Origin: Verrucomicrobiales bacterium
GTDB taxonomy: Bacteria; Verrucomicrobiota; Verrucomicrobiia; Limisphaerales; UBA1100
Reading direction: 5' to 3'
Length of the DNA stretch: 41,929 nucleotides
NCBI GenBank assembly: GCA_005809105.1
Contig: SYLI01000019.1
Coordinates: 1 to 41,929 of the forward strand
A program made the position numbers and the translations under genes. Below the pieces are notes generated by a model, which was given only the letters and a program-made list of their open reading frames with translations, did no database searches and had not been told where the DNA came from. Of the stretch, positions 14,916-34,711 are shown piece by piece. The first letter of the stretch is position 1. Each line of letters starts with the position of its first letter.

Positions 14916-15006
14916 GAGCGGAACACTATCGGGGGTTGGGTTGGTTGTAAACACGATTGCTGTAAGCACCACTTTGACAGGCCGGAATGCGAAAAGGTTA
15001 CGAAAG

Positions 15007-17328
15007 TCACGATCCCGGCTTGGCCTCGGGGCTGCCCGCTGGCGCAGGAACCGCAGATGGCCGGCGCGACGGATCCCCCGGCAGCGGAGGCTCTGGCGGC
15101 CCGGGCAGTTTGGGAGGCGCGGGCAATGTCGGAGGTGTTGGAATTCCGGGCAGCTCCCCGGTGGTGGATTGCGGTGGCGCGGGCGCAGGTGCGGGTGGTA
15201 GCAGCTGAAGGGGTGGCTTTGGTGGCTGGGGAACCGGAGATGGCCGGCGCGGCGGATCCCCCGGCAGCGGCGGCCTTGGCGGCACAGTGGCCCCAGAGTT
15301 CCACTGTTGCATCCGCAGCAGCTCACCCACCAGCAGAGAGAGGCTGTTGGTTTTCTTGTCTGCCAATTCCAGCGTCAGGAAGCCGCTCGAGCCGGCGACA
15401 TCCGAGTTGCCGGCCAGTGTCAGCGACTCAAATTGCGAGAGGGGAGCGGTGAAGGATTCAGCACCGGGAACCTCGCGCAACAATGGCAGCGCCGCCTTGA
15501 TGCTTGCGTGGAGAGTGATGGCGTTGCCTTCAAGCAGGGATCGCGTGGCGGCGGGCAGCGTGTCGCCGGGGTTTGGAGTTTCCAAGCGCGACTTGAGCGA
15601 GTCAGGCGAAAGGCAGAGCCAGTTGCCATTGCGGAAAAATTGAAGCCCCAGCAATTTGAGCGACTGCGCCAGAGTCAGGCCGCCAGCCCCTGGCGCGGGC
15701 AGGGTTTCCAACGACTTGATCCACGCATCGGCCGCCGCCGTGCTCTTGACGCTGGCCACCGCCAAGACTGCCGGCGCCCCGCCCGGTTGCACAGGGGGAA
15801 GCAACGCCACCACCGCATCGCCACCGGCCAATTCCAGCAGCTTGGCCACGGAGAGACCCACCGCGGCCAGCGCCTGGTCGGCGGCTGCCGTGGCAGACGT
15901 GCCGGTTCCCGCCGCGAGAGACTGCGCCACTGCGGCGGCATTGACCGATGCAGCGAGCACCACCAATGCATTGGCTGGCACGACGTCGAGCAGCTCCTTG
16001 GGGACGCCCTTGCCGCTGGGATTGGCCGTCAGTGGTTTTGCCAGAGAAGCGCTGACGTCCACTCGGACGTTGCCTTTACCGAACCAACCGGCCAGCGCAA
16101 CACTCGAGACTCCCGCCTGAGCCAGCGCCTCGCGTTGGGATTCATCCAGCGGCACCACCTGCGAAATCCGCGCCAAGTTAAGCCAAATCCCAAAGTCATG
16201 GGTCTTCTGCTGGGAAGCCTTGAAGTGGGCGTCGCCCGTCAAGCCGCCGGCTTTGCCAAAGAGCTGCTTAAGACGCGGCATGAGGGTCGCAGCGTCGGTC
16301 GCGGTGTCGCCACCGTTGGCCACCAGCACCACTAGGGCTTCATTGTTGTAGCCCATCACCACAGGCAATCCTGGCACCGCGCAGGCTTGGAATCCTCCTT
16401 GGTCGGCAAATTTCAAATTGGGTGCGGGCACCTTGGCAAACCCCGCCAGCACCGTGAGTGCATTGGGAAGCGCGGTGTTGATTTTCTCAATGTCTCCCAC
16501 CGGCAAGACCAGTCCCATGTCGGGCTTGGCATCCTTGAGCGCGGGCGCCATGGCAAACACATGCAGGGGCTGATTGATGGCAAATCCCAGATTTTCCGGG
16601 CTGAACATGCCCACCACCATCTTGATCTGCTTTCCCTCGGGCGTCGCGCCCGCCGCCTGATCGAGCAGCGCCGAAAATCCGCCCGCCTTGTCCAGCAACT
16701 GCTTGGGCGCGATGGTCAATACAGCAAAGGCATCCGCCGGCAAGTAGGCGGCACTGGCTGGCAGCGGCCTCGCCAGCGGCAAGTCCGCGCCGGTCGGAAG
16801 GGTGGGATTGCCCGTCCCGGGCGTGGGAGGGTTGGGGATGGGGATCGGGGAAGTGCCGTTCTCCTCGGTGTTGGGGAGATTGGGAAGTTGGGAATTACCC
16901 TTGGGTTTGTTGGGCGTCGGGTTTTGTACTTCCTCTTGCGGCTTGCCAAACCAACCCAGTTGCCACGCCGCGACTGCGCCACCACCAAGAACCAGCAGCA
17001 CGGACAGCAAAATCCACAGTTTGCGCCTGCTGCCGCCGGTGGTCGCACCGCTGGCTGCCAAAGCCGGTTCTTCCAAGTCCTCCACTTGCTCCTCGGCGGG
17101 ATCCGCAGGGGCTTTTCTTACCGCCACGACTGCAGGACGGACGGGGAGTTTGGCAGGAGGGGCGAATGCAGCGGCATCCAAAATGTCGCCCACGGTTTTC
17201 CAGGCGGGATCGCCCTCAAGGATGGCCAGATCGGCCAGCGTCAACTGGCCCTCGTCGAGCAGCCCTTGCAGCTGATCCAGCGAGTAGGGGCCAAAGTTTT
17301 CGCCGCCGCGATGAACCCAATAGGACAT
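15007..17328 (-). CDS. GYF_2-domain membrane protein with 'PADA'-family domain, paralog 2
   Basis: A 773-residue fusion. Residues 1-50 form a GYF_2-type domain ('MSYWVHRGGENFGPYSLDQL', then 'LAILEGDPAWKTVGDIL'). Next come an acidic linker and one membrane helix ('LWILLSVLLVLGGGAVAAW', about 100-125), then a Pro/Asn-rich spacer. The outer part starts 'AAYLPADAFAVLTIAPKQLL', like its two neighbours. The tail is about 85 residues of mostly Pro, Arg, Ala and Gly. The GYF domain would face the cytoplasm and the PADA domain the periplasm. The frame is open to 17448, but ATG 17328 gives the complete GYF domain and does not overlap the upstream gene. The role is unknown. Confidence 0.72.
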   Translation of the reverse strand: MSYWVHRGGENFGPYSLDQLQGLLDEGQLTLADLAILEGDPAWKTVGDILDAAAFAPPAKLPVRPAVVAVRKAPADPAEEQVEDLEEPALAASGATTGGSRRKLWILLSVLLVLGGGAVAAWQLGWFGKPQEEVQNPTPNKPKGNSQLPNLPNTEENGTSPIPIPNPPTPGTGNPTLPTGADLPLARPLPASAAYLPADAFAVLTIAPKQLLDKAGGFSALLDQAAGATPEGKQIKMVVGMFSPENLGFAINQPLHVFAMAPALKDAKPDMGLVLPVGDIEKINTALPNALTVLAGFAKVPAPNLKFADQGGFQACAVPGLPVVMGYNNEALVVLVANGGDTATDAATLMPRLKQLFGKAGGLTGDAHFKASQQKTHDFGIWLNLARISQVVPLDESQREALAQAGVSSVALAGWFGKGNVRVDVSASLAKPLTANPSGKGVPKELLDVVPANALVVLAASVNAAAVAQSLAAGTGTSATAAADQALAAVGLSVAKLLELAGGDAVVALLPPVQPGGAPAVLAVASVKSTAAADAWIKSLETLPAPGAGGLTLAQSLKLLGLQFFRNGNWLCLSPDSLKSRLETPNPGDTLPAATRSLLEGNAITLHASIKAALPLLREVPGAESFTAPLSQFESLTLAGNSDVAGSSGFLTLELADKKTNSLSLLVGELLRMQQWNSGATVPPRPPLPGDPPRRPSPVPQPPKPPLQLLPPAPAPAPPQSTTGELPGIPTPPTLPAPPKLPGPPEPPLPGDPSRRPSAVPAPAGSPEAKPGS
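15056..15270. repeat. 32-bp direct repeat in the proline-rich tail region
   Basis: The segments 15056-15087 and 15239-15270 are identical at 31 of 32 positions, 183 bp apart. They encode 'LPGDPSRRPSAVP' and 'LPGDPPRRPSPVP' in the tail of the GYF/PADA protein. This points to recent tail expansion by duplication. Confidence 0.85.
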
Positions 17329-17371
17329 GGCAGAGTATGGTTGGAACGAGCTTCGAAAGCCAAAGGAAAAA

Positions 17372-19015
17372 TCAGTTTCCAGGGCGCCGCGGCGCAAGGC
17401 CATCCAGTGCGAGCTCCAGTAGTTTTCGCAGGCTGTTGATTCCGCCATCGGCCAGCGCCAGATGCGTCTGCAGCCGCACTTGGCCCGAGTCTTGACGCAG
17501 GCTCAAAGTCAGATGGCCCAGCGCATCCAGGTTGGGTGCCGCATCGAAACGGTGCATGGCATGGCTCAATCTGCGAAAGTCAATCTTGAGCGCGGCGCCG
17601 CTGCCCACGAATGACTCCCACTCTCGCGCAGGCAACATCGCGGGACGCTCTTTTTTAAGGGATTCGCGGTGGGGGCTGGTGGCGAGGACGAGCCGGTTGT
17701 CCACCGCCAGGGCGCCCACTCCCAATCCATCGAATGGGGCAAGGCGGCTTGCCATGCTGCGCGCTTGTTCAGGCTTGGCGAAGCTGGCGGCCGCCAGAAA
17801 TTCCACCTTTGGCACCGGCAACTTGGGCAAACTCAGGTTGGGCAGCTTAAGCCAGGGCAGCGCGGGGCGTGCTTGCGCCTCGCCGGGTGCGGGCTTGGCA
17901 TCGGGTGGCGCGGCATCGGTAATCGCCAGAGCCAGGTCGCCCTGCCATTGCGCCATCAACTCGGCCAGCGAAAGGCCCAGAAAGTTTTCGGCCATCTTCA
18001 GGATGGCAGCAGATGTCTCCGCACCGCCGGGCAGAAGCGCCGATCCGGCACCAAGGGACGGCGGCAGTGCCGGCAGATTCACCCCGACGATGCCTGCCAC
18101 AATGGCATCGCGCGGAAGCAACCCAACCAAGCCGGCATCGACCGGCTTGAGGGGAAGCAGGGCAGTGCCGGCGCTTGTGTGCAGCGCGGCATCAAGCCGC
18201 ACCTGCCCGGCGTCGAAGTGAACCGATGCGGTGACCTGCCCCTGCGAAAGGCCGCTCAATCTGGGCTCACGCAAGAGTGCTTTGAGCGGCTCGGCATCCG
18301 CGGGCAGCCACTTGGCTGCTGCCTCGACATTCACCCACGCCGCCACGTCGGCGCCGGAGGATTGCAGCGCGGTGAAGGCCGGCGCGGCCAGCGCAGAGCG
18401 GGACGAAAACATCTGCGTCAACCTTGAAGGCAGATGATTCGCGCCGCCTTCCTGTGCCAGCAGGAGGAGGGTGCTCTCGTCGTAGGCGGCGGCAAAGGGT
18501 TCGCGCCCATCGAAGATGCCGTGCAAGGAGCCGCGCGTCTGGACGCGGTTGAGAAACCTCATGCCCAGTTGCGCGGGCAGATCGCGCAGGCCCTGCTCAA
18601 AGGCGCGGCGGTCGCGCAAGGGGACGATGAGGCCGTACACGGGTTTGCCGGCCGCATCGGGTTCAATGAAAAAATGCCAGGGGGCGTCGGTGCGCAGGCC
18701 CTTCTTTCCCAAGTCGGCGTCGTCCTTGAGGCGTGCGGGATTGATGAACATGCGTGCGCCCGGCAGCTGGTCGATGCGTTCCTGGATGAGGAGCGGCAGG
18801 GCCGATTTTTCGATCAGCCGGGGCACGTGCAGCGTGAGCACCAGAGCGGCATCGGCGGGGATGTAGCCAGCGGCGTCGCGGGCATGGGCGGCAGGGGCGC
18901 GGCGCAAGACCAGCCACGCCATGGCGCCGGCGGCAAAGAGCACGGCGACAATGACCAGCAGCACCACGGCCGCGCTGCCGCGTGCCGGGGAGAGGGCGTT
19001 GCGATGCGATTTCAT
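17372..19015 (-). CDS. Membrane-anchored 'PADA'-family protein, paralog 3
   Basis: The protein has 547 residues. A membrane helix at about residues 14-36 ('AVVLLVIVAVLFAAGAMAWL') is preceded by a basic N-terminus and lacks a clear cleavage site, so it is probably a membrane anchor. The outer part opens 'AGYIPADAALVLTLHVPRLI', the same motif as in the two downstream genes, and the C-terminus ends 'LQTHLALADGGINSLRKLL', again matching them. Function is unknown. It lies 39 nt after the Sel1/MORN lipoprotein gene and 43 nt before the GYF fusion gene, so all four minus-strand genes are probably one operon. Confidence 0.72.
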   Translation of the reverse strand: MKSHRNALSPARGSAAVVLLVIVAVLFAAGAMAWLVLRRAPAAHARDAAGYIPADAALVLTLHVPRLIEKSALPLLIQERIDQLPGARMFINPARLKDDADLGKKGLRTDAPWHFFIEPDAAGKPVYGLIVPLRDRRAFEQGLRDLPAQLGMRFLNRVQTRGSLHGIFDGREPFAAAYDESTLLLLAQEGGANHLPSRLTQMFSSRSALAAPAFTALQSSGADVAAWVNVEAAAKWLPADAEPLKALLREPRLSGLSQGQVTASVHFDAGQVRLDAALHTSAGTALLPLKPVDAGLVGLLPRDAIVAGIVGVNLPALPPSLGAGSALLPGGAETSAAILKMAENFLGLSLAELMAQWQGDLALAITDAAPPDAKPAPGEAQARPALPWLKLPNLSLPKLPVPKVEFLAAASFAKPEQARSMASRLAPFDGLGVGALAVDNRLVLATSPHRESLKKERPAMLPAREWESFVGSGAALKIDFRRLSHAMHRFDAAPNLDALGHLTLSLRQDSGQVRLQTHLALADGGINSLRKLLELALDGLAPRRPGN

Positions 19016-19054: not shown

Positions 19055-20173
19055 TTATTTTTCGGGCGCGGGAAGACCGGGCTCTTTCGTCAGGCGGCCG
19101 CTTTCGTAAACCCAACGCCCGGCACGCGTGCCGTTGGCGTGGTACATCGCCAGGGTGCCGTTGCCCGCGCGCACGGCACCGGCGGGCTTGCCGTCCGGGC
19201 CAAACGCGCTGGCATTCAAAAGTTGCCCGTGCTGGTTGGTGCCGGAGAGCTGCGCCTGTCCATTGGGATACCATGTGGAGATGAGGCCATGCCGCTGGCC
19301 GTCGCGGTATTCCATTTGGCCCTGCGGTTGGCCGTTGGGATGCCAGGTGCGTTCCCACCCATGAAGCCGGCCTTGCTTCACCTCCATTTCCTTGGCGCGG
19401 ACACCGTTGGTGTGCATCAGGCTGGCGCGGCCCGAATAGGGCTGCTGCTGGCCCGGCGCGTAGAACAATCCCGCGCGCAGGATCAGCGGCGAACTCATGG
19501 CCGGCCCGCGCGAGAGGCCCGCCATGGCCTCACGGGCCTGGGTTTCGGCGGCCGTGCGTTGCTGCGCCGAGAGACTTGGGGCCAGCAGGTGATATTCGGC
19601 CTGCGCATCCAGGAGGCCCAGTTCGGTCGCCATCAGCAGGAACTTGCCGGCTTGCACCAAGTCCCGCCGGGTTCCGTTTCCATCCCGGCTCATGAGCGCC
19701 AAGTGGAAGATCGCCTGGCGGTGGCTGTGCCGGCCCGCCTCGTCAAACCAGTGAAATGCCCTCGTGGCGTTGGCCGAGACACCCTTGCCAAAGAGGTACA
19801 TGCGGCCTAGGTCATATTGCGCCGCCGGCACGCCCTGCATGGCCGCCTGCTGATGCCAACGTGCCGCCTCGGGCAGGTTGGCGGGCACGCCAAAGCCATG
19901 CTGCAGCGCCACGGCCCAGTTGTGCTGGGCATCGGGCAGGCCTTGCTGTGCCGCCTGCCGGTACCAGTATGCCGAGGCGTTGGCGTCGCGAGGCACACCC
20001 TCGCCCAGCCGGTGCATCTGGCCCAGCAGCATCTGGGCATTGGGATCGCCCGCCTTTGCCCGCGCGAGGATGAGTGCCGCCGCCGTCTCGGGTGTGGGTG
20101 CTTGTGCGGACTTTTCCGAGTCGCAACCGGCCAGCGCACACGCGGCCGCCAGCGCCATCAATACCCCACGCAC
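19055..20173 (-). CDS. Sel1-repeat and MORN-repeat lipoprotein
   Basis: The N-terminus is a lipoprotein signal ('LMALAAACALAGC'). At least four Sel1-like repeats follow ('AKAGDPNAQMLLGQMHRLGE', 'AAQQGLPDAQHNWAVALQHG', 'AAMQGVPAAQYDLGRMYLFG', and a more diverged one). The C-terminal third holds MORN-type repeats ('MHTNGVRAKEMEVKQGRLHG', 'WHPNGQPQGQMEYRDGQRHG', 'WYPNGQAQLSG'). Sel1 repeats bind protein partners, so a scaffold role at the envelope is possible. The frame is open to a GTG at 20224; GTG 20173 ('RGVLMALAAACALAGC') gives a compact lipoprotein signal and is preferred. It is the first gene of the operon with the three PADA proteins, and 69 bp separate it from a divergent gene. Confidence 0.78.
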   Translation of the reverse strand: MRGVLMALAAACALAGCDSEKSAQAPTPETAAALILARAKAGDPNAQMLLGQMHRLGEGVPRDANASAYWYRQAAQQGLPDAQHNWAVALQHGFGVPANLPEAARWHQQAAMQGVPAAQYDLGRMYLFGKGVSANATRAFHWFDEAGRHSHRQAIFHLALMSRDGNGTRRDLVQAGKFLLMATELGLLDAQAEYHLLAPSLSAQQRTAAETQAREAMAGLSRGPAMSSPLILRAGLFYAPGQQQPYSGRASLMHTNGVRAKEMEVKQGRLHGWERTWHPNGQPQGQMEYRDGQRHGLISTWYPNGQAQLSGTNQHGQLLNASAFGPDGKPAGAVRAGNGTLAMYHANGTRAGRWVYESGRLTKEPGLPAPEK

Positions 20174-20242
20174 GCCCCGCAGCCTAGTGCATGGCGCCGC
20201 GTCGGCGCAAGGTGCAGAGCACACTCTTCACAGGGAGTGAAG

Positions 20243-21370
20243 ATGTTTGGTTCGGCAGTGGCCATGGCGGCCGCTAGCGTGGAACCGGTGAAGCGAACCG
20301 ATCGGATGGGGCTCATCGTGGGAGTGACGGTGATTGCCCTGGGCCTGGGAGGCGCGGCGCTTTATCAGCGCGGCCGCAGTGGCACCCGCCTGCCGGCGCG
20401 GCCTTCGAAGGCTGCCGTGGCCGATCTGGCCATGCTGGGCACGGCCGGCGAATGGTCGCAGCGCGGGCGAACGCAATATGCCGAAGGCAATCGGTCGGCC
20501 GAGTTCACCGCCAAGGAGCACGTGTACTGGTCGCTGGGAGGGCGCTGGCAAATCACCGAGACCCGGTATCTGGCCGCCGGCCGCTCCGACCACGAGCTGT
20601 CCATCAAGACCTTCAATCAGGCCGACGGCGCGCATCAGTATGTCCTCTGCACCGACACGGGGCACGTGGTGGGCTTTCGCGGACGCTGGATGGAAATCGA
20701 CAAGGCCCTGCAATGGGAGCCGGTTTATCCCGCCACCAATTCGCCGCCATTGTCCGTGTTCGTGCGCGAGATCATCCCCCAGCCCGATCGCCGTCGCGTG
20801 ATGTCCCAGTACCGGCACTTCACCAATCTGGTGAAGGAAGTGCTCATGGACTCGGCGTGGAAGGCGTCCCTGCCGGTGGACGCGCCTCTGCCGTCCGGCC
20901 GCCCGGCCGGGCCAGAGTGGGCCGTGCTGGGCGACGCGGGCCTATGGGGCGAACGCCAGAAGCTCAAGGACTCGCGCGGCGCCACCGCCGAGATGCGCGT
21001 GCGCGGGCGCGCCCGGTGGGCATGCGAGGGGCGTTGCCTGCTCTTCGAGGGGGTCATTCTGGAGTCGTCCGAAGGCGAGCGCCAGGTGCCCGTGCTGTGG
21101 ATCAAGACCTTTGAGAAGGAAACCGGCGCCTATCGTTACGCCTACTTTTGGGAGAACGGGCAGGTGGATCATTACCAGGGCCGCTGGGATGAAAAGTCCA
21201 GAACGCTCTCGTGGCGCTCCACCCGGCTCGATTCAGGCGAACAGAGGACTTGCGAGTTTGAGGAGAGGTCGCCCAAGCAGGGCACGCGCGAGTGGAAATA
21301 CAAGCTGCGCGAATTTGGCAAGGTTATCGTCGAGGGCGCTGGCGAGGGCCGCCGGCTCGACGAGCCCTGA
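20243..21370 (+). CDS. Membrane-anchored protein with duplicated DUF1579-like domain
   Basis: The ATG at 20243 has GGGAG about 6 nt upstream and gives 375 residues; the open frame further upstream (to 19817) overlaps the lipoprotein gene and is rejected. A membrane helix lies at about residues 22-42 ('MGLIVGVTVIALGLGGAALY'). Two related domains follow. The first has 'MLGTAGEWSQRGR', 'VYWSLGGRWQITETRYL', 'LSIKTFNQADGAHQYVLCTD', 'GRWMEIDKALQW'. The second has 'VLGDAGLWGERQK', 'WACEGRCLLFEGVIL', 'LWIKTFEKETGAYRYAYFWE', 'GRWDEKSRTLSW'. The pattern resembles DUF1579, a lipocalin-like domain. No function can be given. Confidence 0.72.
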   Translation: MFGSAVAMAAASVEPVKRTDRMGLIVGVTVIALGLGGAALYQRGRSGTRLPARPSKAAVADLAMLGTAGEWSQRGRTQYAEGNRSAEFTAKEHVYWSLGGRWQITETRYLAAGRSDHELSIKTFNQADGAHQYVLCTDTGHVVGFRGRWMEIDKALQWEPVYPATNSPPLSVFVREIIPQPDRRRVMSQYRHFTNLVKEVLMDSAWKASLPVDAPLPSGRPAGPEWAVLGDAGLWGERQKLKDSRGATAEMRVRGRARWACEGRCLLFEGVILESSEGERQVPVLWIKTFEKETGAYRYAYFWENGQVDHYQGRWDEKSRTLSWRSTRLDSGEQRTCEFEERSPKQGTREWKYKLREFGKVIVEGAGEGRRLDEP

Positions 21371-21409: not shown

Positions 21410-24400
21410 TCAGGCCAACTCGGCTTCGCGCAGCACCCTTCCGGCCGTGGGCAGCACCCGATCCACATCGGGCAGGTGGCTGTGGATGACGCGAAGGGCG
21501 CGGTCGTTCTCGTGCACGAGCAGCCGCCGGTACCAGCCCGCCCAACACTGGCTCACCGTGGGCTCATCGGCCGGCTCGGCAAGCGATTCGCTGCGACCGC
21601 TGGCAATGCGGCAGAAATAAATGGCGGCCGTCGTGGCGGCTGAATCGGGATCCTGCGCGGCCTCGAAAAGTGCGAGCGCCTCGTCGAAGTGCCCGGCGGT
21701 GAGCAGCGCCACGGCGCGGTGCCTTCGCAGGTCTTCGTCACCGGGGTGATGCAGCAGGGCCTGCGCGGTCCATTCCAGCGGCACCGTGTTGTCGGCCACG
21801 CTTTGGTTGGCGATCTTGGCTCCCAGCGCCCAGAGGTGCGTTTGCGTGGGGTGCAGCGTGAGAAACTCGTGCAGCATGCAGAGCGCGTCGCCGGGCCGTT
21901 TTTCGTTGGCCAGAAACTGGGCAAAGTCGTGCCGCAGCGCCGCATTGGTCTGCTCCTTGTCCAAGGCCTTCTGGAACTGCTCCTGCGCCTGTCCCGCCCG
22001 GCCGTCGCGCGCGTAGCAAAGTGCGAGCAGATGATGTGGCGCGGCCGTGTGCACTGCCGCGCAGCCCGGTGCCATCGTCGGCGCGCCCGCCTTGGCGATG
22101 CACGATTCCAATTCCACGGCGGCCTCGCCGTGCCGGGTCAGTTTGAGCAGGGCAAGCCCGCGCAGGTAATGCGCCGTGGCCGTGGGCCCGCTGGCGCGCG
22201 CCAGTGTGGATTGCGCAAAGTCCGCGGCCTTCTCGTAATCTTCCGCCTGCATGAGAAGCGAGCTGTAGGTGTTGACCAGCCGGTCGCGCACCTCGGGCAG
22301 AATGCTGCCCGCGGGCAGCGATTGCATCGCCTGCGCAGCCAGCCCCAGTTGTTGCAGGGCCTGTTCCATCTGGCCGTCGTTGTAGAGGTCCAGTCCGTAA
22401 TTGAGCATCAAGGCCGGCTCCCCGGGCATCTCCTCAAGGGCGCGCTCTAGCAGGCGCAGGTTGCGCTGAACCTTGTCCTTGGACTTTTTAACCTGGGCGT
22501 CGTAGCCGTGGTGTAAAAGGGTGGCGCGGCCCAGCCCGAGCGAGAGCTGCCACCGGTGACCCTGGCGTGCGAGAGTGGAAAACACCTGCTCGTGCACCCG
22601 GCCCAGAAAACACAGGCCCGGCGCATTGCGAAAGAGGCGCGGCACGTAGCTCGCACCGCCCGCCGCGGTCCCGGCGTTGATCAAGGGCAATCGCAGTCCG
22701 GCATGAGCCGCGCCGAGCAGGTCGGCGCGAAGATCGGCCAGCGTGCCGGCCATGAGCTCCTCGTCGGCGTCGAGAATCAACACCCAGTCACCGCGCGCGT
22801 GCGCCAGCGAGGCGTTGCGGGCATCGGCAAAGTTGTCGTTCCAGGCAAAGGAATGAACTTGCGCCCCCGCGGCCAGTGCCAGTTCCACGGTGCGGTCGGT
22901 GGAGCCGGTGTCCACCACGACGATCTGGTGCGCCACGTCCTTCACGGAAGCCAGCGCACGGGCGATGAACTGCTCCTCGTTGCGGACAATCATGCAGACG
23001 GAAAGGCGCGGTGGCTGCGTGAGGGCGGGCAATGGCGGCCAGGCGATGACGCTGTGCGAGAGCGACTGGCGCGCCAAGAGCGACTGGCGCAGCGCCGCCG
23101 GAGCCTCCCATGCGGGCGTGAGAATTTGCAACCGGTCAAGGCACGCCAGCGCGTGGCGCTCGTCGCCCGCGGCCAGCGCGATGTGCGCGAGGTAAAGGTA
23201 CGCGTCGGGGTGAAAGGGTCTTAAGGCGAGTGCGTCGGCGACGGCAACGGCCGCCGCTTGGAATTGACCGGCCTTGGCCAGATGCGCGGCTTCGTCGAGC
23301 TGGCCCACGCTGGCCACAGGGTGCAGCGGGATTTTCCGCGAGTGCCCGCCGCTGCTGAGAGTGACATGGCTTTGGGCGGTCGGCAGGTCCAGTTGCGCCC
23401 GCAGTGTGAGAGGACTCTCCACGGCGATGGCGGGCGCAGTGCCGTTGGCGCCGGCAGAAGCTGGCGCTGCTGGCGCGCCGTTCGAGCCGTTCATGTCAGG
23501 GGTGCCGCCCTTGCTGGCACGCAGGTTTTCAAGCGCCACCTGATTGCGCGGATCCAATTCCACCACCCGCTTGAAGAGCCGGGCGGCCTCGCCGGTCTGG
23601 CCTTGGCGGTGCAGGCAGATGCCGAGGGCCTGGAGCACTTCCACGTCGTCGGGAAGTTGACGGAGAATCTTTTGATACTGCCGCGCTGCGCCGGCGTGAT
23701 TGCCCGCGTTGAAGTGGGCGTGTCCGAGCAGACGCAGGGCATCGGCGTTTTGCGGATCGATGGCCAGCGCCCGCTTGACGCCCCGTTCAAAGAGCGGCAG
23801 ATCGTTGAGCTTGTAACCAATCAACCCCACGCGCATCCATGCCAGGATGTTTCCCGGCGCCATCCTGGCGAGGTGCTCGGCGTGGCGTCGCGCGGCGGCG
23901 TATTGCCCCAGGGTCATGAAGAGGTTCGCGATGGCCTCGATGAGCACCGGTTCCTGCGGCAGCTCCTCAATGGCGCGTTCCAGCAGGATGACAGCGTCGC
24001 CGAAGCGGTTCTGGTTGATGGCAATCTGCGCGGCCTCGAGCGCCGATGCCACATCCGCGGGCACCGAAGGGTCGCCCAGAGGCGGAATGATGGGCTCGCT
24101 GGCGGATTTGAGGCCGCCGAGCACATTGAGGTTGTTGCGGGCAATCTTGTTGTCCGGGTCCAGTTCCAGCACGCGCTGGTAAACCAGGCGCGCCGTGTCG
24201 CGCTCGCCACCGTGGTAGAGGCAGACCGCCAGTGCGAGCATGCTGCCCAGGTCGTTGGGGTCGGTATCGATGATGCGCCTGAACGTGCGCGCGGCATCCA
24301 GATGACGCCCGGCCTGGAGGTTGAGCCGGCCCAGCAGACGGAGGGCCTCGATGTTTCCGGGGTCGAGTTCCAACGCAAGGCCCAGCGCGGCCTCAAATTC

Positions 24401-27142
24401 CTCGTTGCGCCCGGTTTGATGCGCCGCCAGTGCGAGCTTGGTGTACGCGCCTGCGTCGACGGGGGCCAGTTCGATCAGACGCCGGAAAAGTTCACGGGCG
24501 CGCTCGTACTTTTCCTCCTGGTAATGGAGCAGGCCCAGGGTGCTCAAGACACGCGGGTCGCGGGGGTTTAATGCCAGCGCGCGCTCCAACTCGGCGATGG
24601 CGGCGATGGCGTTGCGGCCGGCCATGAACACCTCGGCCTGTTCGAGGTGGTGATCAATATCGGCCTGCCGGAGTGGTGCGTCTGGCGGGATGGATGAAGA
24701 TTGGGACATAAATTGTTCAGTGACTTCGCACAGGAGCGCCGCCGCCGGCGAAAGGACGGCGGGCGCGGTGGCTTGGCGGGCGCGCAGTTGTTGCAGCCGC
24801 GAGAATGCCTTGTCGGCTGCCGCTTTCCATGTCCAGTGCCGATGCGCGTGCTCGCTGGCGCGGCGGCCCAGCGCGCGGGCCTGGTCCCGGTGTTCTGTGA
24901 CCCAGCGCAGGCGCGCGCCCAAGGCGGCTGCATCGGGCTCGAGCAGCCAGCCGGGTTTGACGAGCAGCAGATTGCCCACCCAGGGCGGCAGCGGCTTGCG
25001 GATGGCGGGCAGCCGGTACGCCACCAAGTCGGGCGCAAAATCATCTGTGGCGCCGCCGCCCGTCACCACCACCGGAAGCCCGCACGCCATGGCCTCGAGC
25101 ACCGGCAATCCAAAGCCCTCGCCGCGGTAGGGATGCACGAGGCAATCGCAGGCGGTGTAGAGCGAGGCAATCTGGTCGGCGGGCAAGTCCTCATTCAGAT
25201 AGAGGATTTCCGGCGCCGCAGGGTTGGCCCGCGCCTGTTCGATGGCCTGGGCCATTGTTTGGCCGGCGTAAAAAGTCTGGCCGCCAAAATCCTTGATCAC
25301 CAGGCACACGTCGTCCTTGGCGGTGAACGTCTCCAGATACGACTTGAGCAGGATGTCCGGGCCCTTGCGCCCGATGGTGCCGCCGACAAAGAGAAACTTG
25401 AATCGCTTGCGCGTGGGCAGGGACAGGGGCGCGGCGCCGGGGTGAAAGAGCTGCGGGTCGATGCCATTGGGAACCACGCATACCTTTTCGGCCGGCACGC
25501 CGGAGTCGATGTAGACCTCACGCACATAGTGGGTGGGCACCCACACCTCGTCCACGGCTTCAATCTCACGCACCCACTCGGCGGGAAGCGCGCCAAATTC
25601 CCACGGCTGGATGAGCACCCACTTGCCCTTCGCAGGGCGCTCCCACACAGGCGGCCATGCATGGCGCACCGTGACCTGCGTGTCGTCTGCGGCACCGCCC
25701 GAGAGCGTTGGTGCCATACCCTGCAACGAATCGGGCACCGGGGCGTCCGCCATGCCACCGCGCTGCACATTGCGCAGCTCAAGGCCCGGCTGTGTGGCCA
25801 ATGCCGCTGTGAGCGACCGGTTGACATGTGAGAGACTGCCGTAGTCGAGGAAGGTGCCTTCCCATGACACGGAAAGGGGCCGGGCCACAGGGCCGGCGGG
25901 ACGCGCGCCGGAACGCACCGGCTGCGCTTGGATGGAATGCAGGCGCGCCAGGATGAGCTTGGACACCGCCGATGCGCTGAAGTGCCGTGCGACGTGCCGC
26001 CGTGCGCGCTGGCCCAACGCCCGCGCGGCGTCGGGATGTTGGAGCGTCTGACGCATCAACTGGCGCAGGTGCTCCTCAAAGGGCTCCGCCCAGCGATGCC
26101 CGCGGTAGTGTGCTTGAGTGGCTTCCAATCCGGCGGCTTCCGCCAGTTCGTAGTCTAAAAGGTAGGCGGTGTCGGCCGTCATGAACTCGGTCGTGCCGCT
26201 CCATCCGGTGGCGATGACCGGAAGGCCCATCATCATCGCTTCGTGCTGGGGCCGGCCCCAGCCTTCGCCGCGGCTGGGCGCCACCAGACAATCTACGGCC
26301 CGGTAAAGCCGTGGCAGGTCCGCCAGAGCCAGTTCGCCCGTCAACAGCTCCACTCGCGGCAGCGCCTTGCGGCCCAGCTTGAGCGAGCGGGCGAACTCCT
26401 CGATCCGTTGTTGCAGCGCGGCCGATGCCTCCTGCTGCGGCTGGCCAAAGGGATGCGTGCGCAGGTAGAGGCAGACATCGTCGCTGGCGGCAAACTCCCG
26501 CAGGTACGCCGAGAGCAGCACGTCCCAGCCCTTGCGAGAGGACCACTCGAACACAGAGAGGAAATTCCATCCCGCGGGTTGGGGCAGGGCGAGGGGAGTC
26601 GTCGCCTCAGGATCAAAGAGCGTCTCATCCACCGCTCCGGGGATGATCCTGAGCTTGGATCGGTCCACGCCGCTGGCGGCAAACGTGTCGGCATTGAACC
26701 GGCTGGGCACCCAGATCTCGTCCATGCGCTTGCAGGCCTCGACCCAGTTGGCGGGCAGGCGGTCCGTCTCGAACATGGTGCGGCCGATGTGATACTCGGC
26801 GTCCGGCCAGTGCTGGAACGCGAAAGCGGGGCAGTGCTGGACCACGATGCCGCCGGAGAGCGCCGCGTAATTCGCCTGTAGGGTCATCAGGCAGTCGCGC
26901 GTGGGCGCGGGCAGCGACTGCACGAACTGCCGCGACACCACCGTGCTGTTGTGGCGCAACCCCAGGTTGAGCCGGCGTGCCATGGGCTCAAGGAAAGCGA
27001 TGGCCTCGCTGGCGTAACCGGAGGTGTTAAAGACTGGTGACATCCATCGCACGGCGCCGCCGAGGGCCGGGGCGCCGTTATGGCTGGTGCCCGCGCCGGT
27101 CTGTGCCGGGGTGGCGTCCGTCCCTGGTGTTGAGGTTGGCAT
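21410..27142 (-). CDS. Giant multidomain glycosyltransferase (GT4-GT4-TPR-GT2-TPR), candidate flagellin glycosyltransferase
   Basis: The protein has 1910 residues and no signal peptide or membrane helix, so it is cytoplasmic. A first GT4-like domain (about 30-410) carries 'PSRGEGWGRPQHEAMMMGLP' near 288-310. A second (about 419-810) carries 'PYRGEGFGLPVLEAMACGLP' near 669-690, the classic E-x7-E nucleotide-sugar site. A TPR array follows (about 820-1270), then a GT2 domain (about 1375-1620) with 'LSVCMIVRNEEQFIARAL', 'VVVDTGSTDRTVEL' and 'LILDADEE' (the DxD-type metal site near 1455), and finally more TPRs to the end. Such enzymes attach or extend sugars; TPRs often bind the protein acceptor. 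It lies just downstream of three flagellin genes on the same strand, behind its own sigma-54-type promoter. Flagellin glycosylation is the best inference. Confidence 0.88.
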   Translation of the reverse strand: MPTSTPGTDATPAQTGAGTSHNGAPALGGAVRWMSPVFNTSGYASEAIAFLEPMARRLNLGLRHNSTVVSRQFVQSLPAPTRDCLMTLQANYAALSGGIVVQHCPAFAFQHWPDAEYHIGRTMFETDRLPANWVEACKRMDEIWVPSRFNADTFAASGVDRSKLRIIPGAVDETLFDPEATTPLALPQPAGWNFLSVFEWSSRKGWDVLLSAYLREFAASDDVCLYLRTHPFGQPQQEASAALQQRIEEFARSLKLGRKALPRVELLTGELALADLPRLYRAVDCLVAPSRGEGWGRPQHEAMMMGLPVIATGWSGTTEFMTADTAYLLDYELAEAAGLEATQAHYRGHRWAEPFEEHLRQLMRQTLQHPDAARALGQRARRHVARHFSASAVSKLILARLHSIQAQPVRSGARPAGPVARPLSVSWEGTFLDYGSLSHVNRSLTAALATQPGLELRNVQRGGMADAPVPDSLQGMAPTLSGGAADDTQVTVRHAWPPVWERPAKGKWVLIQPWEFGALPAEWVREIEAVDEVWVPTHYVREVYIDSGVPAEKVCVVPNGIDPQLFHPGAAPLSLPTRKRFKFLFVGGTIGRKGPDILLKSYLETFTAKDDVCLVIKDFGGQTFYAGQTMAQAIEQARANPAAPEILYLNEDLPADQIASLYTACDCLVHPYRGEGFGLPVLEAMACGLPVVVTGGGATDDFAPDLVAYRLPAIRKPLPPWVGNLLLVKPGWLLEPDAAALGARLRWVTEHRDQARALGRRASEHAHRHWTWKAAADKAFSRLQQLRARQATAPAVLSPAAALLCEVTEQFMSQSSSIPPDAPLRQADIDHHLEQAEVFMAGRNAIAAIAELERALALNPRDPRVLSTLGLLHYQEEKYERARELFRRLIELAPVDAGAYTKLALAAHQTGRNEEFEAALGLALELDPGNIEALRLLGRLNLQAGRHLDAARTFRRIIDTDPNDLGSMLALAVCLYHGGERDTARLVYQRVLELDPDNKIARNNLNVLGGLKSASEPIIPPLGDPSVPADVASALEAAQIAINQNRFGDAVILLERAIEELPQEPVLIEAIANLFMTLGQYAAARRHAEHLARMAPGNILAWMRVGLIGYKLNDLPLFERGVKRALAIDPQNADALRLLGHAHFNAGNHAGAARQYQKILRQLPDDVEVLQALGICLHRQGQTGEAARLFKRVVELDPRNQVALENLRASKGGTPDMNGSNGAPAAPASAGANGTAPAIAVESPLTLRAQLDLPTAQSHVTLSSGGHSRKIPLHPVASVGQLDEAAHLAKAGQFQAAAVAVADALALRPFHPDAYLYLAHIALAAGDERHALACLDRLQILTPAWEAPAALRQSLLARQSLSHSVIAWPPLPALTQPPRLSVCMIVRNEEQFIARALASVKDVAHQIVVVDTGSTDRTVELALAAGAQVHSFAWNDNFADARNASLAHARGDWVLILDADEELMAGTLADLRADLLGAAHAGLRLPLINAGTAAGGASYVPRLFRNAPGLCFLGRVHEQVFSTLARQGHRWQLSLGLGRATLLHHGYDAQVKKSKDKVQRNLRLLERALEEMPGEPALMLNYGLDLYNDGQMEQALQQLGLAAQAMQSLPAGSILPEVRDRLVNTYSSLLMQAEDYEKAADFAQSTLARASGPTATAHYLRGLALLKLTRHGEAAVELESCIAKAGAPTMAPGCAAVHTAAPHHLLALCYARDGRAGQAQEQFQKALDKEQTNAALRHDFAQFLANEKRPGDALCMLHEFLTLHPTQTHLWALGAKIANQSVADNTVPLEWTAQALLHHPGDEDLRRHRAVALLTAGHFDEALALFEAAQDPDSAATTAAIYFCRIASGRSESLAEPADEPTVSQCWAGWYRRLLVHENDRALRVIHSHLPDVDRVLPTAGRVLREAELA

Positions 27143-27184: not shown

Positions 27185-27200
27185 AGCACGTGGGATGCCA
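27185..27200 (-). promoter_or_regulatory. Sigma-54 (RpoN) type promoter of the giant glycosyltransferase gene
   Basis: Read on the minus strand, TGGCATCCCACGTGCT has GG-N10-GC spacing. The predicted start near 27174 lies about 31 nt before the ATG at 27142. It matches the TGGCAY-N6-TGCT form seen before fliO, flhA and flagellin B, and places this enzyme in the flagellar regulon. Confidence 0.68.
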
Positions 27201-27245: not shown

Positions 27246-27536
27246 CTAGTTCAGAAGCTCGTGAAGGCGCTCAGGGGTGAGATTGCTCCAATCGTAGAGC
27301 GATTGCACCATCTCGTCCTGGGTGCCATGGGCTGCCTGTTGAGTCGCTTGTTGCGTGGCGGCCGCGGCGGCGTCGGCACTGTTCAATCGGGGCGCCTGAA
27401 GGGAGGCCGATGGCAGGTGCAGGGTGTCGGCTGTGATGCCGGGAGTGGCGGCCTTGGGCGTGGGCCCGGGTGGGATAGCCCTGCGGAGCGAGGGCAGGGG
27501 ATCCGTCGGCGGGGCGGTGGGGAATCGTGTTTCCAT
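27246..27536 (-). CDS. Small protein of unknown function in the flagellin region
   Basis: The 96-residue protein is not recognised. The first half is Pro/Thr-rich ('FPTAPPTDPLPSLRRAIPPG'). An Ala/Gln stretch follows ('DAAAAATQQATQQAAHG'), then a probable helix at the end ('DEMVQSLYDWSNLTPERL'). The ATG at 27536 is chosen because a sigma-54-type promoter at 27562-27577 overlaps the longer GTG-started version and would start transcription about 16 nt before this ATG. There is no clear Shine-Dalgarno sequence. Position between the flagellins and the glycosyltransferase suggests a flagellar accessory such as a chaperone, cap adaptor or regulator, but nothing in the sequence identifies it. Confidence 0.5.
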   Translation of the reverse strand: METRFPTAPPTDPLPSLRRAIPPGPTPKAATPGITADTLHLPSASLQAPRLNSADAAAAATQQATQQAAHGTQDEMVQSLYDWSNLTPERLHELLN

Positions 27537-27561
27537 AATGTGCGTCGTGCAGCTTCTGCGT

Positions 27562-27577
27562 AGCAGGCCCGATGCCA
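27562..27577 (-). promoter_or_regulatory. Sigma-54 (RpoN) type promoter of the small flagellar-region gene
   Basis: Read on the minus strand, TGGCATCGGGCCTGCT has GG-N10-GC spacing and differs from the flhA site at only two positions. The predicted start near 27552 is just upstream of the ATG at 27536. It lies in the 177-nt gap after flagellin C. Confidence 0.65.
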
Positions 27578-27713
27578 CTGGGAGGGGATGCCCGCGAATT
27601 GCAACTGGCCGGGATGGGCTTGCCAGCCCGACCAGTTAAGCAGGGACAACCGGCCTTGTTGTTTGCTCACGCACGTCGACCTGGGGGCCATGGCGTGTGG
27701 CGCGAGCAGTTTG

Positions 27714-29756
27714 TCACCGCAAGAGCTCGATGGCTGATTGCGGCAGCTGGTTGGCCTGCTTGAGCATCTGGGTGCCGGAGGAGACCAGAATCTGGTACCG
27801 GGCGTACTGGGTGGACTCCTCGGCGACATCGACATCCACGATGCGGCTCACGGCGGCGCTTAGGTTTTCCTTGGTCACGGTGAGCTGCGAGTTGGTGAAA
27901 TTGAGGCGCGACTGCGTGGCGCCCAATCGCGAGCGGTCGCTGGCCACCTGGGTGATGGCGCTGTTGGTCAACGTGAGCGCGATGGCCGCCGAATCCTTGG
28001 TCTTGATGTTGACCGTCTGGTAGGCGGAGGGCGTGTTCTCGACGGCAAAGGCCGAGAGATCCTGCGTGGTGGCGACGATCGAGCCCGAGGCGATCACGGC
28101 CGCCGCGGTGTCTTCGCCGCTGGTGATCACGTTGTTGGACACGTACGCGTTCTTGCTCACGGCCGTCCACTTGGAGTCCACGAGCGAAGCCAGCGCGGTG
28201 CCGGCGGTCTTGACCGCAACATACGCGCCGTTGGCATAGCTCTTGACGCCGGAGTCGGCACCCGAGACGACCTCATTGACGAAACTGCCGCTGGCATACT
28301 TGGTGTAATTGGCGTCGCCGTCCTTGTTGAGGTTCGTCCAAACGGCGTTCTTGTTCGCCAGGTGACTGATGTCCTGGGTGGAGTTCACCTGCACATCGGC
28401 GCCGCCGGAGGTGTGTGTGACGGTCGCGGCGGAGTCCTCCTGCCAGGAGATCACGTCCATCGCCGCGCCGGTACCATCGGCGGTGATGTCCACCTTGTTC
28501 GCCGCCGTGAGGGCGCTGTCGGTGTAGAGCTCCACCGTGTTCGCATCAATCCGCTTGGCATAGTAGGTGGTCGTGGTGTCGGTGCCCGCAGGCGCCGAGG
28601 CCGTGAATTTCACCCAGTCGCCATCCTTGAGCCCGTGGCTGCTCTTGGTCAGCTGGTCGCTGGCGGCGGTGCTGGTGATGGTGGTGAGGGAGGTCTTCTC
28701 CGTCACATCATGCGCCGTGACATACTTGCCGCTGGCAACGCTGGTGTACTGCGAGGAGGTGAGATCCTTGAACTTGGCGGTGTTGGCGGCCGTGAAGGAG
28801 TTGGTGTCGTACTTCTTGAAATCATCGGCCGTGAGGTTGCCGCTGGCGGTGCTCAGGTTGATGCTGGTGAAGTCGCCCGCGTTGTAGGTGGTGACGCTGG
28901 TCGAGGGCGGGTTGGTGGGTGCGCCCAGCGAGTTCTTCAGCACGAAACTGCCCTTGGCATACTTGGTCCAGCCGCTCACGCCGTCATTGTTGGTGGTGGA
29001 CCAGGTGTTGGTGCTGCTGTTAAACCAGAGATCCTCGCCCAGCTTGTAGGCGTCGCGCTTGAGCTTGTACACGTCGCTGTTGAACGTGTTGCCACCGACG
29101 GAAGTCTGCCAGACGTTCTTGTCCGACTGGATTTTCCAGTCGTTCTTGCGCCAGAGATCGGTGGAGGTCTTGTACGCCGCCTGGCCCACGGTGAAGCCGT
29201 CCTTGGACAGGCGGTAGGTGGTCTGGTTGAGCTGGTAGCTCTTGGTGCCGTTGTTGAGCGCGTTGTCATAATTGTACGCGCTCAAGTCAATCCCGGCGGT
29301 CTCGAAGGTGGAGCCTTCGGAGTCGATGGTGACCTTCAGGATCGCGCCGTCGAACATGGACACCCCGTTGAAATCCTGCTCCTTGGTCTCCAGCACATAG
29401 CGTTTGACCTCCTGAAACTCCTGGTCGTAGAGCGCGCGGTCGGCGTCGGACTTGGTGGCGTCCTGGGCCAGCATGGCCAGCTCGCTCATCCGGCGGAAGG
29501 CCGTGGAGATTTCCTTCATGAACCCGTCCTGAGTCTGGGTCCACGACACGCCGTTGCCCACGTTGCTCGCGGCGGCGTCCAGGCGCTTGATCTTCGCCTC
29601 CAGCCGGTTGCTCACCGCCAGGCCGGCGGCGTCGTCGGCAGGGCGCACGATCTTGGAGCCTGAGCTCAGCCGCGCCAGCGACTTCTGCAGGTTGGAGTGG
29701 CTGACGTTGAGGTTGTTGCTCGTGATGAGCGCCTCGATGTTCGTGTTGATGACCAT
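27714..29756 (-). CDS. fliC: Flagellin C (680 residues)
   Basis: Flagellin is the filament subunit. The D0/D1 N-terminus is canonical ('MVINTNIEALITSNNLNVSH', 'LARLSSGSKIVRPADDAAGL', 'DGFMKEISTAFRRMSELAML'), as is the C-terminus ('RLNFTNSQLTVTKENLSAAV', 'ARYQILVSSGTQMLKQANQL'). The central exposed region is very large. It holds Trp-rich modules ('LSKDGFTVGQAAYKTSTDLW', about 177-207, with a second variant near 230-252), 'TKYAKGSFV' and 'TKYASGSFV' elements, and one HG-type repeat at about 356-432. It is the most diverged of the three flagellins. AAGGA stands about 7 nt before the ATG, and only 43 nt separate it from flagellin B, so the two are probably co-transcribed. Confidence 0.96.
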   Translation of the reverse strand: MVINTNIEALITSNNLNVSHSNLQKSLARLSSGSKIVRPADDAAGLAVSNRLEAKIKRLDAAASNVGNGVSWTQTQDGFMKEISTAFRRMSELAMLAQDATKSDADRALYDQEFQEVKRYVLETKEQDFNGVSMFDGAILKVTIDSEGSTFETAGIDLSAYNYDNALNNGTKSYQLNQTTYRLSKDGFTVGQAAYKTSTDLWRKNDWKIQSDKNVWQTSVGGNTFNSDVYKLKRDAYKLGEDLWFNSSTNTWSTTNNDGVSGWTKYAKGSFVLKNSLGAPTNPPSTSVTTYNAGDFTSINLSTASGNLTADDFKKYDTNSFTAANTAKFKDLTSSQYTSVASGKYVTAHDVTEKTSLTTITSTAASDQLTKSSHGLKDGDWVKFTASAPAGTDTTTTYYAKRIDANTVELYTDSALTAANKVDITADGTGAAMDVISWQEDSAATVTHTSGGADVQVNSTQDISHLANKNAVWTNLNKDGDANYTKYASGSFVNEVVSGADSGVKSYANGAYVAVKTAGTALASLVDSKWTAVSKNAYVSNNVITSGEDTAAAVIASGSIVATTQDLSAFAVENTPSAYQTVNIKTKDSAAIALTLTNSAITQVASDRSRLGATQSRLNFTNSQLTVTKENLSAAVSRIVDVDVAEESTQYARYQILVSSGTQMLKQANQLPQSAIELLR
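28455..28690 (-). repeat. HG-type repeat module in flagellin C
   Basis: One copy, residues about 356-432. Key pieces are 'DQLTKSSHGLKDGDWVKF', 'TTYYAKRIDANTVELYTD' and 'ALTAANKVDITADGTG'. It aligns closely with the second and third copies in flagellin B and with the flgE copies. Confidence 0.8.
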
Positions 29757-29799: not shown

Positions 29800-31749
29800 T
29801 TACTTGAGCAGTTGCAGGGCCGATTGCGGGAGCTGGTTGGCTTGTTTCAGCATCTCCGTGCCCGAGGCCACCAGGATTTGGAATCGCGCGTACTGGGTGG
29901 CTTCCTCGGCCACGTCCACGTCGGCGATACGGCTGATGGCCGCCGAGAGGTTTTCTTTCGTCACCGTCAGCTGGTCGTTGGTGAAGTTCAACCGGGACTG
30001 CACCGCGCCCAGTTTCGCGCGGTCGGTGGCCACCTGCGTGATGGCCTTCTTCACCAGATCCAGCGCCACCTGCGAGCCGACCACCGACTTCAAGTTCACG
30101 TCGTCGTAGTACGTGGTGTCGTTGCGGGTGGCGAATGCGCTGATGTCCTGCGTGGACTGGTCGATCACCACATCCTGGCCCTTGAGCGTCTTGACGGCCT
30201 TGGTGTCTTCGCCCGTGGTGATGGGGTTGGCGAGGATGTAGTAGCCCTTCTTGAGCACGTTGTTGAGATTCTCGGCGTTCACGCCTCCGGAGGTGCCTTC
30301 CAGGTTCAGGCGCACATCGGCTCCGTCCGTACTCACGACGACTTTCGTCGTCATCGCACTGTCGCTGTAAAGGTCGAAGGTGTCGGCGGAGAGTTTCTTG
30401 ACGTAGTAATCGGTGTACGTCGTGGCGCCGGTCGCGCCGCCGTCGCTCGTCACCTTCACCTTGTCGCCCGTGTTCAGGCCATGGGCCGTCTTGGTCACGG
30501 TGTCGGAGGAGGCCGACCAGCTGGCTCCCGTCAAGCGAGCGCCCTGCATCACCACGTCGGTTCCATCGGCGCTTACGAGCACCTTGTTCGCCCCCGTAAG
30601 GGCGTTGTCGGTGTAGAGTTCCAACGTATCGGCGGTGAGCTTCTTGACGTAATAGTTGGTGTAGGTGGAGGCCCCTGTGGCGCCACCGATGGAGCTGAGT
30701 TGCACCACGTCTCCCGACTCCAGTCCGTGGGAGGTCTTGGTCAGATTGTCAGTGCTCGCCGCCCAGGTAGCACCGCTCACGGTGTTGCCCAAATCCACGG
30801 CGCTGGTGCCGGCGGTGGCGTTGTCCTTGGTGTTGTGCAGGGTGATGTCGTTGCCCGACACATTGACATAGTAGGTCGTGCTGGCATCCGTGCCGGAGGG
30901 CACCGAGCCGCTGAGCTTGATGGAATCGCCCGTCACAAGGCCGTGGCCGGACTTGGTGAGCTTGTTGGTGAGAAAGTTGGTGGTAAACCCGTTCACCTTC
31001 ACCGTCGAGGCGACAAACGTGTTGGCCGAGAGCGTCTTCACCCCGGCATCCAGTGAGCTTGAGATGGTGTCGGAGACAATGGATCCGGTGGCAAATTTGG
31101 TGCCGCCATTGTCGGTGGCCGACCAGTTGCCCAGACTGTCGCGCCACAAGGCGACCGAGGTTTTGTACGCGGCTGCCTTGAGCTCGTAGCCATCCTTGGA
31201 GAGCTTGTAGGCGTCGGAGGTGAGGTGCCAGGATTCCACGCCGGAATTGATCGCGGTGTTGTACACGTCGGCTTCGAGGTCGATGCCGACCATGGAGAAG
31301 GTGGTGCCATTCGCATCCACCGTCACGTCCATGGACCTGCCGGCGAAGAGCGACACGCCGTTGAAGTCCTGCTTGGACGTCTCGTTGACGTAGTCCTTGA
31401 GCTGCGCAAATTCCTGGTTGTAGAGGGCGCGGTCCTCGTCGGACTTGGTGGTGTCCTGCGCCAGCATGGCCAGCTCGCCCATGCGTCGGAAGGCCTTGTC
31501 GATCGTCTTCATAAAGCCGTCCTGCGTCTGCGTGAACGAGACGGCGTTAATGACGTTGTTGAGGGCGGAGTCGAGTCGCTTAATCTGAGAATTAAGGCGC
31601 GAGCTCACCGCCAGTCCGGCGGCATCGTCGGAGGGAACGATGATTTTCGAGCCGGAGGAGAGTCGGGAGAGTGACTTGGCCAGTTGGGCTTGGCTGACAT
31701 TGAGGTTGTTGGCCGTTGTCTGAGCCTCAATGTTGGTATTGATGACCAT
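29800..31749 (-). CDS. fliC: Flagellin B (649 residues)
   Basis: Canonical flagellin ends: 'MVINTNIEAQTTANNLNVSQ', 'LSRLSSGSKIIVPSDDAAGL', 'TQTQDGFMKTIDKAFRRMGE' and, at the C-terminus, 'RLNFTNDQLTVTKENLSAAI', 'ARFQILVASGTEMLKQANQL'. The ends are nearly the same as in flagellin A, so the two are recent paralogs. The central region has one Trp-rich module ('LSKDGYELKAAAYKTSVALW', about 178-200) and three HG-type repeats (about 258-330, 329-403, 409-480), copies two and three being very similar. A 253-nt upstream gap carries its own sigma-54-type promoter and a conserved leader element. No good Shine-Dalgarno sequence is visible, so translation may depend on leader structure. Confidence 0.96.
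   Translation of the reverse strand: MVINTNIEAQTTANNLNVSQAQLAKSLSRLSSGSKIIVPSDDAAGLAVSSRLNSQIKRLDSALNNVINAVSFTQTQDGFMKTIDKAFRRMGELAMLAQDTTKSDEDRALYNQEFAQLKDYVNETSKQDFNGVSLFAGRSMDVTVDANGTTFSMVGIDLEADVYNTAINSGVESWHLTSDAYKLSKDGYELKAAAYKTSVALWRDSLGNWSATDNGGTKFATGSIVSDTISSSLDAGVKTLSANTFVASTVKVNGFTTNFLTNKLTKSGHGLVTGDSIKLSGSVPSGTDASTTYYVNVSGNDITLHNTKDNATAGTSAVDLGNTVSGATWAASTDNLTKTSHGLESGDVVQLSSIGGATGASTYTNYYVKKLTADTLELYTDNALTGANKVLVSADGTDVVMQGARLTGASWSASSDTVTKTAHGLNTGDKVKVTSDGGATGATTYTDYYVKKLSADTFDLYSDSAMTTKVVVSTDGADVRLNLEGTSGGVNAENLNNVLKKGYYILANPITTGEDTKAVKTLKGQDVVIDQSTQDISAFATRNDTTYYDDVNLKSVVGSQVALDLVKKAITQVATDRAKLGAVQSRLNFTNDQLTVTKENLSAAISRIADVDVAEEATQYARFQILVASGTEMLKQANQLPQSALQLLK
30300..30975 (-). 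repeat. Three HG-type repeat modules in flagellin B
   Basis: Three tandem copies of about 70-75 residues. Key pieces are 'NKLTKSGHGLVTGDSIKL', 'DNLTKTSHGLESGDVVQL' and 'DTVTKTAHGLNTGDKVKV'. Copies two and three continue with 'YTNYYVKKLTADTLELYTDN' and 'YTDYYVKKLSADTFDLYSDS' and are also similar at DNA level, which fits duplication inside the gene. Confidence 0.85.
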
Positions 31750-34077: not shown

Positions 34078-34139
34078 AACTACACAATTCTGATAGCGCA
34101 GAGCAGACGCCATGCCATGCGTCATCCATCCACGGCTCG

Positions 34140-34193: not shown

Positions 34194-34374
34194 CCAATCG
34201 CTATGGAGAATTGCTCATAGCAGGTTGGCATTTTTGGCATTCTGGCTGAAGAAGTTGAGCAACAAATTGATTGCAAGGTACTTGTGAAATAATAGCTGGG
34301 GAATGCCCTCAGCTTCCAAGGATGGGGTAGTCAAAAATGGCCTAGAATTCCGCGAATTCGGAAACGGCCTGAAG

Positions 34375-34677: not shown

Positions 34678-34691
34678 CTGCCTTATGGCAA

Positions 34692-34711
34692 CCCGCTGTC
34701 CCTACAGCGGG
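34692..34711. promoter_or_regulatory. Perfect inverted repeat between the FHA and kinase genes
   Basis: CCCGCTGT-CCCT-ACAGCGGG is an 8-bp perfect inverted repeat with a 4-nt centre. It lies 15 nt from the FHA start and about 68 nt from the kinase start, in their shared 102-nt divergent promoter region. It could be an operator for both genes or an mRNA hairpin. Confidence 0.45.

Follow-up and report, generated by a model that had tools for sequence, protein, structure and literature searches.

A very large fused glycosyltransferase encoded beside three flagellin genes in Verrucomicrobiales is probably a flagellin glycosylation enzyme with an exchangeable N-terminus

What does a single protein with three glycosyltransferase domains do directly beside a set of flagellin genes? 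This question is raised by a locus in a window of 41,929 nucleotides, i.e. the whole stretch of DNA that was analysed, from a Verrucomicrobiales bacterium (contig SYLI01000019.1, assembly GCA_005809105.1; all coordinates refer to this window). The gene for the protein, designated P0001, is an intact ORF of 1910 aa on the minus strand (27142-21410), which starts with ATG and contains no internal stop codon. A Pfam search revealed the domain order GT4-GT4-TPR-GT2-TPR with matches far above chance (PF13692, 3e-29; PF00535, 1e-20; TPR_19, 9e-43), and the protein is conserved from end to end in independent assemblies, with best-segment identities of 71% (L045) and 56% (L046). The polypeptide proposed by the first-pass annotation from the sequence alone was thus borne out, with its five parts in the stated order; its list of parts was incomplete, because an additional short TPR segment precedes the GT2 domain.

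Both N-terminal domains are GT4 domains with a GT-B fold and an EX7E motif, and were assigned by Pfam, motifs and fold. GT4a (residues ~25-405, 25928 to 27070; this and all further parts of the gene are on the minus strand) has an RK at 203-204 and the EX7E motif EGWGRPQHE at residues 293-301 (26266-26240). GT4b (residues ~422-795, 24758 to 25879), which is 36% identical to GT4a, has an RK at 592-593 and the motif EGFGLPVLE at residues 675-683 (25120-25094). An AlphaFold model of the GT4 pair (pLDDT 86.6) matches GT4 enzymes, and the relative placement of the two domains in it is uncertain, given a pTM of 0.52. The first TPR array (residues ~838-1215, 23498 to 24631; Pfam, homolog profiles) is found in the protein's own family; most other families have no such array between GT4b and GT2. 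The short TPR segment (residues ~1269-1347, 23102 to 23338; homolog profiles, AlphaFold model) lies immediately N-terminal to GT2, as in most homologs. The GT2 domain itself (residues ~1375-1575, 22418 to 23020; Pfam, motifs, homology) is a GmaR/SunS-like GT-A domain that forms the conserved core of the family, and carries DTGSTD at 1411-1416, DADE at 1458-1461 and VHEQ at 1516-1519. It is followed by a TPR solenoid (residues ~1576-1907, 21422 to 22417; profiles, AlphaFold model), the constant tail of the family. Catalytic motifs are kept in all three catalytic domains of P0001. Among homologs, all 55 aligned sequences contain DADE and 54 of them the His of (V/I)HE, while both EX7E glutamate pairs are kept in 15 of 15.

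As had been claimed, the P0001 gene is directly preceded on its strand by three flagellin genes, identified by Pfam, which encode proteins of 680 aa (27714 to 29756), 649 aa (29800 to 31749) and 423 aa (32003 to 33274). The nearest is 572 bp away, and all three products are likely acceptors. In the 680-aa flagellin, Ser and Thr make up 25% of the central region versus 19% of the ends. The gene for FliW, a flagellin-binding assembly factor (33622 to 34125, minus strand; neighbourhood annotation), occupies the first place in a gene order FliW-CsrA-flagellin-GT that recurs in many loci. Flagellar export genes, for FliR, FlhB, FlhA and an FlhF-like GTPase, are found elsewhere in the window, on the opposite strand between 7 and 12.7 kb. 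FliW has as its divergent neighbour a gene for a Ser/Thr protein kinase (34303-35841, plus strand). Between the last flagellin gene and the P0001 gene lies a small ORF (27246-27578, minus strand), which may be a real gene because the final 26 residues of its product share 73% identity with a segment at the corresponding position in L045. On the other side, a 517-aa ORF without a Pfam family (19817-21370, plus strand), the true start of which is probably further in, appears to be arranged tail to tail with the P0001 gene, with the ends 40 bp apart; a convergent-neighbour family resembling it was seen in 14 loci. Three consecutive paralogous DUF4836 proteins of 704, 813 and 547 aa, one of them with a GYF_2 domain, are encoded downstream on the minus strand (13212-19015). 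The trio is functionally unassigned; in 12 homologous loci, DUF4836-type relatives again follow downstream on the strand of the glycosyltransferase gene.

A sigma-54-type promoter of its own had also been proposed for the gene. A sigma-54-like -24/-12 site, TGGCATCCCACGTGC, is located 43 bp before the ATG (27186 to 27200, minus strand; motif match, homolog comparison). Matches to the consensus occur across the window at chance level (73 found versus 71 expected), and a match as stand-alone evidence was therefore dropped, so that only positional and comparative support was used. The site is common to the window and L045 in a three-way alignment, near relatives have sigma-54-like sites no more than about 50 bp from the annotated start, and the best upstream scores of P0001 homologs are above background (p=1.5e-6). 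RpoN is encoded in the genome, and neither a sigma-70 promoter nor a terminator was found near the gene start. The proposal thus did not hold as a bare motif match and gained support from position, homolog sites and RpoN, which together suggest that the gene may be under sigma-54 control.

To follow the association with flagellin across genomes, 146 genomes of the order were searched separately with the GT4-GT4 part and the GT2 part. The GT4-GT4 search gave 35 strong matches, and flagellin was found in all of the respective genomes. For GT2, a strong homolog was defined as a match with an E value of 1e-50 or better, a cut-off set after a clear gap between strong and weak matches had been seen. 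Flagellin was present in 63 of 64 genomes with a strong homolog versus 17 of 82 genomes without one (Fisher 4e-24, a value that overstates the independence of the evidence because the genomes are phylogenetically related). The only genome with a strong homolog and without detected flagellin, G017, is 59% complete, and 17 flagellated genomes of the order are without a strong homolog. Across the phylum, an evenly drawn sample of 388 genomes was searched at a threshold of 1e-40. Matches outside the order occurred in six genomes; all six are flagellated, compared with 46 of 388 overall, and in three of them (G190, G230, G233) the match is within 1 kb of flagellin.

The genomic neighbourhood was evaluated for the 52 loci for which 5 kb of flank or more was available. 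A flagellar gene was found in the fetched flank of 31 loci, and the most frequent flagellar neighbour was flagellin (24 loci). In some genomes the contig also carries flagellin, at a distance of about 20 kb (e.g. G005:C61, G011:C35), and in some no link was seen. No flagellar gene was found within the fetched flank of L056, L062, L063, L113, L115 and L117-L120; these genomes do have flagellin. The pattern that the first-pass annotation had named as contrary to its proposal, homologs consistently away from flagellar genes, was thus not found.

Next to this association, the C-terminal unit has its own relationships. Among solved structures, GmaR is the closest to it in sequence (1.4e-25 with the single sequence, 8.9e-52 with a profile); SunS and ThuS come next. 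A match by profile was also obtained with 7x9r, the GmaR TPR structure (7e-17); this match spans chain positions 22-249 of 503, i.e. the first half, and ends at the TPR part. An AlphaFold model of residues 1268-1910 (TPR-GT2-TPR) has a mean pLDDT of 92.5, and its top fold matches are SunS and ThuS (Z 22-26). GmaR is absent from the fold matches listed, which was not counted against a relationship because the sequence match is clear. P0001 scores 63.7 bits against the SunS family TIGR04195, below the family cut-off of 350. Taken together, a GT-A type GT2 domain with DTGSTD, DADE and (V/I)HE that is closest to GmaR/SunS and has a TPR solenoid directly after it makes a protein glycosyltransferase of the GmaR/SunS type the most likely identity of the unit, as judged from sequence and model. 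Since SunS relatives modify other peptides, the acceptor cannot be read from the GT2 fold by itself.

The architecture of relatives was compared across 69 ORFs that contain the GT2 unit. Of the 61 homologs whose 3' end is intact, 57 have a tail of 270-292 residues after the GT2 match, in contrast to N-terminal extensions of 12 to 3866 residues. Homolog profiles identified, as N-terminal modules, GT4s in pairs or singly, between one and six additional GT2s, HAD, other GT-B domains, and methyltransferases of class I and of the FkbM type. Elsewhere in the phylum, outside the order, the GT2 domain mostly stands alone (~370-540 aa; the open frames of the six matches comprise 371-542 aa). The exact domain order of P0001 occurs only in the window, L045 and L046, i.e. 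in this genus and a sister genus. In another genus of the same family, TPR-GT2-TPR is found without GT4s at a flagellin locus (L109, L112), and in two members the GT4-GT4 pair is encoded by a gene of its own at another place. The exact layout is thus confined to these few genomes, and the conserved trait is the C-terminal TPR-GT2-TPR, with the GT4s as one option among many for the N-terminus.

Several homologs illustrate the range. In G010, a stand-alone GT4-GT4 protein of 967 aa is encoded beside sulfatase-like genes, away from the flagellar locus (L049, 633-3536), and the TPR-GT2-TPR part is at the flagellin locus on another contig. A homolog of 4400 aa (L069, 5287-18489), 81 bp after a flagellin, combines an FkbM methyltransferase, several GT2s and one GT4 with the conserved GT2-TPR end. 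Two tandem short GT2-TPR copies of 652 and 663 aa without an N-terminal cassette are present in L130 (1526-5492). On a GT2-TPR tree, obtained with a quick method and SH-aLRT support only, the N-terminal architecture needs at least 16 changes, while the minimum for three coarse classes is two, and the supported sister pair of L061 (three GT4s) and L120 (six GT2s) differs at the N-terminus. These two results point to an exchange of N-terminal modules, be it by transfer or by loss and regain.

Domains of the GT4 and GT2 families are typical of polysaccharide synthesis, and a surface polysaccharide multienzyme, for capsule or O-antigen, might stand beside flagellins by chance. The top single structural match of the GT4-GT4 model is indeed a capsule multienzyme, 8qoy; with TM 0.24-0.32 and an rmsd of 22.9, this alignment is to be read as a generic GT-B match. 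The GT4 pair can also stand alone away from flagella, as in L049. However, the near-perfect co-occurrence with flagellin, the recurring flagellar neighbours and the peptide-glycosyltransferase type of the GT2-TPR unit are at odds with such a role, and the polysaccharide-type GT4 genes of this genome are found elsewhere, on contig C14. We therefore regard a polysaccharide enzyme as very unlikely.

Co-occurrence with flagellin cannot separate flagellin from other flagellar acceptors, because all flagellated genomes have them, and in four loci (L051, L084, L085, L104) the gene adjoins FlgL-FlgK-FlgN-FlgI and not flagellin. The main acceptor might thus be one or more other exported flagellar proteins, such as the hook protein FlgE or hook-associated proteins. 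This is unlikely, as flagellin is the commonest flagellar neighbour and is also the substrate of GmaR, the closest relative that has been characterised. GmaR is also the anti-repressor of MogR, and the homology of P0001 extends to both its GT and its TPR part, so a bifunctional regulator, in which glycosylation would be secondary to the control of flagellar gene expression, was considered as well. However, about 330 residues follow GT2 in P0001 versus about 460 in GmaR, i.e. ~130 fewer, and the anti-repressor domain is situated at the far C-terminus of GmaR (PMC9638930). Because the 7x9r match is also limited to the first half of that structure, a regulatory main role appears highly improbable. 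Two other candidates were rejected. The flagellin glycosyltransferase Maf (MptE-like, PF01973) is absent from this genome and nearly absent from the order, and PF01973 is not among the Pfam matches listed for P0001. Nonulosonic acid as a general donor was dropped, with NeuB patchy in the order and the NeuB copies of this genome off-locus, on contigs C14 and C39.

We propose, with a probability of roughly 0.78, that P0001 is a cytoplasmic fused enzyme of flagellin O-glycosylation with a GT2-TPR initiator, GT4 extenders and an exchangeable N-terminal cassette. The C-terminal TPR solenoid would bind flagellin, the GT2 domain would place the first sugar on Ser/Thr, and the two fused GT4 domains would extend it by one or two further residues with the acceptor still bound. 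By exchange of the cassette, lineages could make different flagellin glycans on one C-terminal unit. The roles of initiator and extenders are assigned by analogy with GmaR, the Clostridioides difficile type B pathway and FlmG; the acceptor, the sugars and the order of action are likewise inferred. The first-pass annotation was probably right about the flagellin link: glycosylation of flagellin is supported by homology to GmaR and SunS/ThuS and by the flagellin association. Its suggestion that TPRs hold the acceptor is backed by analogy with FlmG (PMC7591256), and binding of flagellin by P0001 itself may be expected on that basis. An action on FlgE and the synthesis of a whole glycan by P0001 alone are unsupported by the present evidence.

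For the order as a whole, we tentatively suggest, at somewhat less than even odds, that one protein of up to 4400 aa could be a modular assembly line for the flagellin glycan, in which the C-terminus would be a constant, acceptor-binding initiator and the number and type of recombining N-terminal glycosyltransferases and methyltransferases would set the structure, so that the glycan might be read from the domain order. If so, the composition of the glycan would be predictable from domain content across a large group of uncultured bacteria, and the family would be a natural example of glycosyltransferase module swapping on a common acceptor-binding base. It would also offer a testable reason for differences in flagellin surfaces between close relatives, speculatively an escape from phages or grazers. 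In the literature covered, with most subscription journals outside its scope, we found no relevant report on multi-domain flagellin glycosyltransferases in Verrucomicrobia and none on large glycosyltransferases linked with flagellin.

Known flagellin glycans are made by several separate enzymes. In P0001, the steps appear to be fused, the fusion partners exchanged and the presumed flagellin-binding end kept constant. SunS and ThuS, the best fold matches to the GT2-TPR unit, share its DADE and HE motifs; they differ in that they are peptide S-glycosyltransferases acting on Cys of bacteriocins, with one catalytic domain. GmaR of Listeria monocytogenes, a flagellin O-GlcNAc transferase (PMC9638930), has a GT2 followed by a TPR solenoid like the C-terminal unit of P0001, but comprises 637 aa with an N-terminal GT2 and a C-terminal anti-repressor domain, and lacks GT4 domains and an N-terminal cassette. 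In C. difficile type B, GT1 adds GlcNAc to flagellin and GT2, which carries a methyltransferase domain, adds two rhamnoses, and the genes (GT1, GT2, GT3) lie beside fliC (PMC5207246). This division into initiation and extension resembles the one proposed here, whereas the C. difficile enzymes are encoded by separate PF00535-type genes, without GT4, large TPR arrays or a single giant protein. Caulobacter FlmG likewise unites TPRs and a glycosyltransferase acting on flagellin, its TPR domain binding flagellin in a two-hybrid test and its GT domain transferring the sugar (PMC7591256); in contrast to P0001, it has 596 aa, an N-terminal TPR and one catalytic domain, of the GT-B type and using pseudaminic acid. 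Lastly, the flagellin glycosyltransferases Fgt1 and Fgt2 of Pseudomonas syringae, compared with P0001 by description only, are also encoded beside fliC and build a trisaccharide (PMC3927599), but do so from two genes.
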